A program made the translations under genes and the position numbers. Shown in pieces: positions 46-24,417 of a DNA stretch of 33,133 bases; positions within the stretch are counted from its first letter, which is position 1, and every line of letters starts with the position of its first letter. The notes under the pieces were generated by a model. It was not told where the DNA came from. It ran no database searches and was given only the letters and a program-made list of their open reading frames with translations. The stretch is taken from positions 1 to 33,133 of the forward strand of contig VGXG01000023.1 in NCBI GenBank assembly GCA_016873395.1, read 5' to 3'. Origin of the DNA: Nitrospira sp. (GTDB lineage: Bacteria; Nitrospirota; Nitrospiria; Nitrospirales; Nitrospiraceae).

Positions 46-402
46 ATGAGTAGAGTGGCTGTCAATGAACCAGTGCTTCGTTGGGTGCTGGAACGTTCCG
101 GTCAAACGCTAGCCGCCCTAGAGCGGAAGTTTCCGAAGATCCGCCAGTGGAGAACTGGCGAATCCCAGCCAACACTTCGACAACTGGAGGTTCTAGCGAA
201 AGCCACCCTTACCCCACTAGGGTTCTTCTTCCTTCCAGCCCCGCCCGAAGAAAGGTTACCTATTCCCCATTTTCGGACCAATTGTCCCCGCCCACCTTCT
301 TTTTTAGCTGGCGAAGGTTTTTCGGCCGAGCGGGTGGCGCCGATCAGGGCCCCCGGCCGCCCGCAACGTAAGGGGTTCCCCACGGGGGGATGGGTGGAGT
401 GA
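46..402 (+). pseudogene. Truncated XRE/ImmA-IrrE-type regulator, N-terminal remnant
   Basis: The first 75 or so codons match the N-terminus of the XRE-helix-turn-helix plus ImmA/IrrE metallopeptidase proteins often found in toxin-antitoxin-like loci. Typical landmarks are the start MSRVAVN, a KFPKIRQW segment, QPTLRQLEVLAKAT, and the proline-rich PAPPEERLPIPHFRT. After that last block the homology stops. The remaining 40 residues are low-complexity and there is no HEXXH peptidase domain, although family members normally run to about 350-380 residues. A purine-rich ribosome site (GGAGTAGGG) precedes the ATG. I see a start and a conserved N-terminus; that it is a deletion remnant is inference. 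No partner toxin or RES-domain gene is visible in the adjacent sequence. Confidence 0.6.
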
Positions 403-444: not shown

Positions 445-1323
445 TTATAGATCGTCATCTTTGAGACAGCGCCCCAGTCCCTGTTGTTCGGCAAAGAAGT
501 AGGCATAGTGCATGGCCGCGAGATTCGCGACGCGTTCTTCCGCCTCTTCCCGACTATCCGAATAAATAATCTGGATCCCGTATCTCGCCGTGATGGCATC
601 CAGAAAATCCATCAAGCCGTTTTTTTGATATTGGCCCAACAGCCCTCCGGACTTGCTGTGCTGGAGCTGGCCTTCGATCACCAGAAACCGATGCGGGAAG
701 GCGAGGAGGGGTTCGAGTTCCTGTAGAAACCGCAGGCGATTGTCGGCGGGGTTCGAGAAGGCCGTCATGACCTCTTCGACTCGCTTGCGCAACAGGCAAA
801 AGATGTCCGGTGCTTCTTCAATGACATAGCTGCCCGCCGGCAGTGGTTGCGTGGTGGTCCCGGCTATCCGGTTGAACCCCTCAAAGGTGTAGGGGAGGTG
901 CTCCCTGCTGTCCACGAGCAGATGGCAGGCCGGCACCATGACGATGGGGTGCCCTTGCCGGGCGAGGGTCACAGGCGCCTGGGGCCCTCGAAGGCCCTGA
1001 CGGGATCGTGGGGCCTGTTGGGAACGCGGCGGCGGTGTGGTGTGTGGGGCTGTGGCCGGGCGTGGGGGTGGCGTGGTTGAGGGAACGGTCTGCGTGGCGG
1101 CATCGTAGCGTGCGCGCGCGGCCGGGTCACTGAGGGTTTGATAGGCCTGGTTGATCAGTTGTGTGCGGGTTTCCGCCTTCCGGTGCAGGGCTGGGGAATG
1201 GTTGAAGCGATCCGGATGCCAGACCTGCAGTTGCTCATGCCAGGCTTTTTTGATGTCCGCGTTCGTGGCGGTTGGTCCGATCTCCAGCACCCTGTAATAG
1301 TTGATCGTCCGCTCTTCCCGCAT
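445..1323 (-). CDS. J-domain protein fused to an ERCC4-like nuclease domain
   Basis: The 292-residue protein starts with a J domain (about residues 7-76) that contains the HPD motif at 36-38, which in this family stimulates the DnaK ATPase. A proline-rich linker (80-118) follows. Residues 130-280 resemble the ERCC4 nuclease fold of XPF/Mus81 and phage-type ERCC4 proteins: a VDSRE strand at 137-141, PYTF, the block RFLQELEPLL, then VIEG, and a helical end with ITARYGIQIIYSDSREEA. The canonical GD...ERKxxxD catalytic motif is altered. GDY reads GSY (164-166) and ERK reads LRK (178-180), so nuclease activity is doubtful. The start has a good ribosome site (GAGGAG). The gene stands alone, convergent with the regulator remnant. 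The J-domain assignment is firm; the ERCC4 assignment is by pattern recognition. Confidence 0.75.
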   Translation of the reverse strand: MREERTINYYRVLEIGPTATNADIKKAWHEQLQVWHPDRFNHSPALHRKAETRTQLINQAYQTLSDPAARARYDAATQTVPSTTPPPRPATAPHTTPPPRSQQAPRSRQGLRGPQAPVTLARQGHPIVMVPACHLLVDSREHLPYTFEGFNRIAGTTTQPLPAGSYVIEEAPDIFCLLRKRVEEVMTAFSNPADNRLRFLQELEPLLAFPHRFLVIEGQLQHSKSGGLLGQYQKNGLMDFLDAITARYGIQIIYSDSREEAEERVANLAAMHYAYFFAEQQGLGRCLKDDDL

Positions 1324-1788
1324 GGAGCTCTCCTCTTCGCGTCCAGGAAGTGTAGCTGAGGAGAGGGGGGAAGCGCTAGATCGGGATCGGCCAGCTCACA
1401 GGATAAGGTGTCAGGAGCCGTTTTGAAACCTGCCGCGCGGGAAGATTGCCGGGAAGCTGACCGCTACAGTCCTGAACCCCGCCAATCACCGATACGTTGC
1501 GAGCAAACTGACAGGACACTGAACGGGGCGAAGCGTGAAGGCGACGGGCTTAGTAAGCGGCCCGTCGCCTTTCCATTTTTTATCTTGTCGGCGGCTGGAA
1601 GGGATGAACTCGGAGACGTTCGGCATGGCGGGACCGAGACGTCGAGAGCAGGGACGCGCCGGGCGCCGGACTCTTCTATTCCTCTGAGGCGACCGGGTAT
1701 CAGTAGGGCAGAGATGGCAAGAAGAGATCGACGCATCATGCCGACGCCGGAGCAGTTCGCCCTTCGTCAGCCGCCGCTCTGAGAGTGA
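1324..1788. other. Non-coding gap of about 465 bp
   Basis: No convincing gene is seen on either strand. Two short open frames here have no recognisable domains and arginine/proline-rich compositions typical of chance reading of GC-rich DNA. The only clear structure is the hairpin at 1538-1586. The stretch upstream of that hairpin could be a small RNA, but I recognise no known family. Confidence 0.5.
1538..1586 (+). terminator. Strong hairpin followed by a T-rich tract
   Basis: A perfect 12-bp inverted repeat (AAGGCGACGGGC at 1538-1549, GCCCGTCGCCTT at 1560-1571) with a 10-nt loop is followed within a few bases by CATTTTTTATCTT. This is the layout of a rho-independent terminator on the plus strand. 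No protein gene ends just upstream on that strand, so it may terminate an unannotated small RNA or read-through from the regulator remnant. Confidence 0.6.
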
Positions 1789-23159: not shown

Positions 23160-24417
23160 ATGAAGCCAACCGATCCCACAGGTCCTCAGATAGTCCCCCC
23201 CCGCCGGCTTCCCTACCTCCGGCTCCAGGACCTTATCGTCGTCATGACCCTTGTCGCGGTGGTGATCGGGGGAATCACGCTGCATTACGTCCGGGAACGG
23301 CTGGTGGCGACCACGGGTGAGAGCCTCTCCCTGGCCGCGGCGGACGTGGCCGACAAACTGGACCGGCTGCTGTTCGAGCGGTACGGTGACGTGCAGTTGA
23401 TGGCGCGGGCCCTCGGCGCCAGGTTCGCTGATCGGCGCTATGTAAGCACCTACCTGTCCCGTATGCGTGAGGCCTACTTCCCCATGTACCTCTGGTTGGG
23501 GGTGACCGATCCAGAAGGCCGGGTGATCGCGGCGACGGACCCGAGGACCCTGGGGCAGGATGAGGGTCAGAGCCGATGGTTCGAGGCGCTGCGGAAGGGA
23601 GAGGAGATCCATGTCGGCGACGTGGAGCCCTATGAGACGGCCGGGGGCGTTGATGCGGTCGCCTTCTCGGCCCCGATCCGAGGACCAGGAGGAACGTTGC
23701 GGGGGGCCGTCACGACAAGGGTCGCCATTCCGGTGCTCGAAGACGTGGTGGCGCGCACCATTCGGGCGTTTGAGGCGCGCGAGAAATTTCTGGGCAAGAT
23801 CGAATACCCGCGTGTTCGAGCCGTTTTTTACGACCAAAGCCAAGGGAACAGGGACAGGGTTGGGATTGGCCACGGTCTACGGGATCGTGAAACAAAGCGG
23901 CGGCTTCATCGATGTCGCCAGCCAGCCGGGTCACGGTGCGACGTTTCGGATTTACTTGCCGCAAGTTTTGGAGAGAGTCGAGGCGGCCATGCTTCCGCAA
24001 GTCGCGGCTATCCCGTCCCACGGATCGGAGACGATCTTAATGGCGGAAGATGAGTCCACGATCCGTGAACTGGTCAGCGAGGTCCTCCGGGCCCAGGGAT
24101 ACAGGATCATGGCGGCACGTGATGTCGCAGAGGCCATCCGGATCAGCCAGGAATGCCAGGCTCGGAACACTCCGATCCATCTTCTGCTGACGGACGTGGT
24201 GATGCCGGGGGGCAGCGGCCGGGAGTTGGCCGAACGGTTGGGAGCAGTCATGCCGGACACGAAAGTCCTCTACATGTCCGGGTACACAGATGACGCCATC
24301 CTTCAGCATGGTCTCTCGCAAGCTGAGGTCGCCTTTCTTCGCAAGCCCTTTACCCCGGACGCGTTAGCGCGGAAAATCCGCGAGGTGCTGGACAAGACGG
24401 AAGCGGGCAAGACTTGA
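23160..24417 (+). pseudogene. Hybrid histidine kinase with internal deletion and frameshift
   Basis: The first reading frame encodes a membrane segment (LIVVMTLVAVVIGGITL) and a Cache-type extracellular sensor ([35 protein letters not shown]). At about 23808-23812 the sequence jumps, in another frame, into the end of a kinase ATPase domain ([31 protein letters not shown]). An intact receiver domain follows: [26 protein letters not shown] with the phospho-Asp, and [11 protein letters not shown]. The histidine-phosphorylation domain and the N and G1 boxes are missing. The gene cannot make a working kinase, though the receiver could be expressed separately. A purine-rich ribosome site (AGAGAGG) precedes the ATG. 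Confidence 0.8.

Follow-up and report, generated by a model that had tools for sequence, protein, structure and literature searches.

A J-domain protein of Nitrospira carries an ERCC4 nuclease-like domain whose metal site appears to have been lost repeatedly

A gene on the minus strand of the window (the whole 33,133-nucleotide stretch of Nitrospira sp. DNA analysed here), at 445..1323, encodes a 292-residue protein in which a J domain is fused to a single ERCC4 nuclease-like domain with neither of its two acidic metal ligands. Because the nuclease site seems to have been lost at least three times among its relatives, with the rest of the protein conserved, the fold has probably been kept as a binding module. 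We refer to these fusions as J-ERCC4 proteins.

Results

Domain architecture and predicted fold

The fusion proposed in a preliminary description of this DNA is borne out, since both domains exceed their curated Pfam cut-offs within one open reading frame that is intact from ATG to stop. The J domain (residues 8-74; 1102..1302, minus strand, as are all features of the gene below) matches Pfam DnaJ with E=1.3e-16 and 60.9 bits, against a family cut-off of 27.8, and contains the HPD motif at residues 36-38 (1210..1218). A Pro/Arg-rich basic linker with a conserved RGP(Q/H) follows (residues 77-127; 943..1095); it is defined by alignment, charge and low pLDDT, and is probably disordered. The remainder is the ERCC4 nuclease-like domain (residues 128-283; 475..942), recognised by Pfam, by PF02732 and by an AF2 model that Foldseek relates to Hef/XPF. 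Its Pfam match spans residues 137-267 (523..915; E=5.3e-9, 36.5 bits against a curated cut-off of 24). The ERCC4 domain forms the end of the protein, and an (HhH)2 domain is absent, with no Pfam HhH match.

A single scan of genome contigs returned 45 orthologues of 61-89% identity, almost all of them from Nitrospira, Nitrospiraceae, Nitrospirae or Nitrospirota. Nearly all are full-length, so the fusion is not a product of a frameshift or of assembly; they keep the C-terminal domain in frame, and the frameshift that the preliminary description had considered was not found.

With no more than close orthologues as input, a full-length AF2 model gave low confidence for the ERCC4 part (pLDDT 61). 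Adding 43 ERCC4 relatives from viral contigs to the input of a domain-only model remedied this (mean pLDDT 84.7, pTM 0.79). Every Foldseek match of this model in the PDB at E<=0.001 is a structure of Hef, XPF or Mus81 or of a complex with one of them; the best is the Hef nuclease domain 1j22, with E=1.1e-7 and a TM-score, normalised by target length, of 0.74. The nearest named viral models come from large DNA viruses and a haloarchaeal virus and are likewise ERCC4 proteins. The C-terminal domain is thus predicted to have the XPF/Mus81-type ERCC4 fold that had been proposed for it, with the archaeal Hef/XPF and Mus81 nuclease domains as its structural counterparts.

The active-site motif across the family

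The residues named in the preliminary description lie where it had placed them. By translation and alignment, VDSRE, the retained VDxRE motif, occupies residues 137-141 (901..915), PYTF residues 144-147 and VIEG residues 215-218 (670..681). G164-S165 stands where GD is expected, with S165 (AGC; 829..831) aligned to the first metal-ligand Asp, and L178-R179-K180 (784..792) aligns with the ERK motif, so that Leu replaces E178, the second metal ligand. E183-E184 (772..777) follows, with E184 at the Asp of ERKX3D. The signature therefore reads GSXnLRKX3E in place of GDXnERKX3D, and the altered catalytic motif reported earlier amounts to a change of both metal ligands, D165 to Ser and E178 to Leu.

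We tallied these positions in 82 non-identical J-ERCC4 members, with 43 viral-contig relatives and four free-standing proteins for comparison. HPD is intact in 81/82 members. D138 of VDxRE is likewise found in 81/82, and its Arg in only 53, with His in 13. D165 is present in 53/82 and E178 in 43/82, against 43/43 viral-contig relatives for each. Lys occupies position 180 in 20 members, Glu mostly takes the place of the final Asp of ERKX3D, and E183 is near-invariant (80/82). No member of the 82 has VDxRE, GD and ERKX3D all complete; GD and ERK are intact in every relative used for comparison (43/43 viral-contig and 4/4 free-standing). Both D165 and E178 are kept by 43 of the 82, all of which also keep R179, D138 and E141. 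Four classes can be told apart: GD...ER(K/R) (n=43), GD or GS...LRK (n=8, including the present protein), GD...VRK (n=2) and a degenerate class (n=29), in which position 178 is Lys or Thr and position 165 is mostly Ser, Gly or Asn.

The two substitutions are not of the same age. E178L is common to the whole nearest clade of the protein and is secure because eight sequences carry it, but D165S occurs, within that clade, in this genome only, and the two closest relatives (89% identical) retain D165. Codon 165 is AGC here and GAC in those two relatives, so two wrong bases would be needed for D165S to be a sequencing error.

Repeated loss and purifying selection

E178 changes were placed on a tree from which the motif columns had been removed and the distant free-standing proteins left out. 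Three separate changes were found, to Leu (8 rows, support 99), to Val (2 rows, support 100) and to Lys/Thr (29 rows, support 100); each class without E178 forms one side of a branch, and three changes are required. Provided that the ancestral protein carried E178, which the free-standing relatives have, the residue has been lost at least three times. D165 is missing from the degenerate class and, independently, from the present protein. Rooting the tree on the free-standing proteins split the Lys/Thr clade at its base, a root that we did not accept; the likelihood improves when the clade is kept whole (p-AU 0.78), and for this reason we read the odd root as probably a case of long-branch attraction.

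Selection was gauged from pairwise Nei-Gojobori estimates within classes, with no branch test. dN/dS for the ERCC4 domain is 0.095 in the E178 class, 0.089 in the degenerate Lys/Thr class and 0.185 in the LRK class to which the protein belongs, and for the J domain it lies between 0.10 and 0.21 within classes. By these values the dead ERCC4 domains are under purifying selection, and full loss of the motif has not relaxed the constraint on the fold. Pairs that include the present protein within its clade give ERCC4 values of 0.16-0.26, and selection is somewhat weaker there.

Charge, linker and Hsp70 partners

The ERCC4 domain has a net charge of -7 and a pI of 5.2, against medians of +1 and 7.9 in the viral-contig relatives, and class medians among J-ERCC4 proteins run from -1 to -5, figures that describe net and not surface charge. 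Such a lowered positive charge speaks against DNA as the partner, and it names no protein partner. The linker, with group medians of +5 to +7, could hold nucleic acid and is the sole feature that favours it. The preliminary description had pictured a DNA- or protein-binding module, with Hsp70 recruited to DNA structures: the dN/dS values indirectly favour a non-catalytic module under selection, whereas the acidic domain, the lack of (HhH)2 and the lack, in this genome, of another ERCC4 protein as a pairing partner have so far told against the binding of DNA structures. Two full-length Hsp70s and four J-domain proteins besides J-ERCC4 are encoded in the source genome, where one Hsp70 gene (C51:1338-3125) adjoins a J-domain ORF (C51:861-1061).

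Distribution and gene neighbourhood

J-ERCC4 is a patchy accessory gene. ERCC4 proteins occur in 52 of 396 sampled Nitrospirota genomes; with a full-length profile, J-ERCC4 was found in 59 of the 114 good genomes of its own family, which includes Nitrospira, and in three genomes of a sister family of the same order. The members of these two families whose reading frames were read are J-ERCC4 fusions. Among cultured Nitrospira, N. moscoviensis encodes an orthologue, and the N. defluvii orthologue is of the GD/ERR form. In one genome (G135) the gene is broken into two overlapping frames. The source genome (2.34 Mb, 97.8% complete) has one ERCC4 protein only, by PF02732 profile search. Deeper in Nitrospirota there are free-standing ERCC4 proteins of about 200 residues (three loci), and four further loci there encode another ERCC4 protein, about 360 residues long, which has additional segments at both termini and in which ERK is intact. 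The fusion survey covered Nitrospirota genomes and viral contigs. A scan of the viral contigs with the full-length alignment found no full-length fusion, which leaves a phage origin of the whole fusion unsupported; in relatives from a Rhodoferax plasmid and a Halorubrum virus ERCC4 is free-standing. In one genus of the family a further protein, seen at four loci, has a very similar J domain ahead of a hydrophobic stretch and Sel1-like repeats, so the J domain has been reused.

About 26 bases before the ATG lies a conserved promoter-like element, CTCAGCTACACT (1349..1360, minus strand). Its TACACT is found upstream in 74/82 orthologues, usually 24-36 bases before the start, compared with 2.5% of random windows from the same loci; the element takes the form CTC-N-GCTACACT, and the remaining upstream DNA is dissimilar among orthologues. 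CTCNGCTACACT has one copy in the source genome. We rejected the element as a regulon marker, given this single copy and counts about equal to a reversed control in most other genomes tried.

The gene stands by itself: the ORF at 1841, which we take to be an AI-2E-family transporter, is divergent from it, and a short, apparently truncated ORF at 46-402 (plus strand) is convergent with it. This short ORF has no Pfam or NCBIfam match and looks like an XRE/ImmA-type regulator of which only the N-terminal part is left. We rejected an operon link, as neighbours vary among loci and none of the neighbour clusters lies within the window. The commonest neighbour in relatives is a downstream TPR protein, at 26 of the compared loci, and none of these loci shows a conserved operon partner that points to a client. 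No PADLOC defence-system model matches the protein at E<=0.1. Elsewhere in the window, at 23160-24417 (plus strand), a hybrid histidine kinase appears disrupted. Its dCache ORF (23160-24053) overlaps a second frame, which encodes a receiver domain and, of HATPase_c, the C-terminal half alone; there is no HisKA match.

Discussion

The closest known relatives of the ERCC4 part are free-standing bacterial and viral nucleases (Rhodoferax ferrireducens plasmid protein WP_011458674.1, Halorubrum virus HRTV-27 and PHROG 3490), which, like the present domain, are collinear single ERCC4 domains; the Rhodoferax protein is 35% identical over 181 residues, reaching the last residue. Unlike the present protein, these nucleases have no J domain, and the GD and ERK motifs are preserved in the proteins from Rhodoferax and HRTV-27, as in all 43 viral-contig sequences. 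XPF, Mus81 and Hef have the fold and VDxRE in common with it, but here both metal ligands are gone, there is neither (HhH)2 nor a helicase part, and a J domain has been added. Retention of the ERCC4 fold after motif loss is likewise seen in FANCM-FAAP24, ERCC1 and EME1, although these are eukaryotic heterodimers with HhH and no J domain. The altered motifs of two of these scaffolds are known, CDXnERRX3E in FANCM and PDXnLYVX3D in FAAP24 (PMC3905867); the ERRX3E of FANCM is the form found in most J-ERCC4 proteins of the E178 class, and the Leu of FAAP24 at the Glu position is that of the clade studied here. Class C J-domain proteins, such as DjlA and HscB, have only the J domain in common with DnaJ and otherwise carry domains of their own (PMC8215388). 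A J domain with a private domain is what we see here too; for a targeting domain of the ERCC4 type, as proposed here, the open-access papers searched gave no description.

We would put at about an even chance the reading that the protein belongs to the class C J-domain co-chaperones and that its ERCC4 fold is a partner-binding module presenting something to DnaK. The two full Hsp70s of the genome, one of them next to a J-domain ORF, fit this reading; the patchy distribution of the gene, the lack of a conserved neighbour that hints at a client and the somewhat weaker selection in its own clade weigh against it. The metal site of ERCC4 nucleases requires two acidic ligands (Asp52 and Glu62 in ApXPF; PMC3905867), and since both are absent, normal nuclease catalysis by the protein is not to be expected. 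From the dead ERCC4 scaffolds, the acidic charge, the class C J proteins and the ability of DnaK to take apart the DNA-bound initiator complexes of phage and plasmid replication (PMC8215388), we infer a targeting module. An N-terminal J domain with its HPD motif is followed by the basic linker and by a single ERCC4 fold related to the free-standing bacterial and viral-contig nucleases. The fold would serve to bind, and perhaps to dimerise; its partners would be one protein or a few, which might themselves sit on nucleic acid. Judging from its HPD motif, the J domain would deliver DnaK to those partners, so that the complex is remodelled or dismantled. A broader account, to which we give somewhat less than an even chance, is that in the ancestor of the Nitrospirales a J domain took up a nuclease domain, which afterwards became, in several parallel events, a catalytically dead module for recognising the clients of DnaK; the result would be a family of pseudonuclease co-chaperones.

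A different role, in line with the preliminary description, is one in which the ERCC4 domain and linker still bind branched or flapped DNA without cutting it and the J domain brings DnaK to DNA structures for the remodelling of repair or replication complexes. Kinship to structure-selective nucleases, the basic linker and the action of DnaK on replication initiator complexes (PMC8215388) are consistent with this role, but we think it rather unlikely, given the charge of the domain relative to its viral-contig relatives, the missing HhH domain and the precedent of FANCM-FAAP24, in which the active-site region is without a positive surface and the nuclease domains show no DNA binding (PMC3905867). 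The weaker selection on the present protein (ERCC4 dN/dS of 0.16-0.26 for its pairs, above 0.09 elsewhere), together with the absence of the gene from about half of the family and the split frame in G135, might instead mean that the gene is decaying in this lineage, a metal ligand having been lost recently and the gene being on its way out. Yet the frame, HPD, most conserved positions and the promoter element are kept and dN/dS is well below 1, and we regard decay as improbable.

Somewhat less probable still is that much of the family is still a nuclease (GDXnERRX3E), with the J domain aiding turnover or assembly, and that the present protein is weakly active or acts through other residues. 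The 43 of 82 members that retain D165, E178, R179, D138 and E141 suggest a working metal site in their class; against this, E178 is missing from half of the family and both ligands from this protein, ERKX3D occurs together with VDxRE and GD in no member, and the similar ERRX3E form of FANCM is inactive (PMC3905867). Since dimers are common among ERCC4 proteins and some include a dead partner (PMC3905867), we also considered that this protein might pair with an active ERCC4 nuclease as its non-catalytic subunit, in the way of EME1 or ERCC1. This we consider very improbable and largely refuted, because PF02732 finds a single ERCC4 protein in a genome that is 97.8% complete.

No description of a J and ERCC4 architecture, or of ERCC4 in Nitrospira, was found in the open-access papers searched. 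The parts are known, but their combination and its repeated inactivation appear to be undescribed. Through this protein the Hsp70 system of Nitrospira and related bacteria is connected with a fold of the DNA-repair type. Because orthologues whose metal site looks intact, half lost or wholly lost coexist, it would be directly testable within one family whether, and by what path, a nuclease turns into the targeting domain of a co-chaperone.
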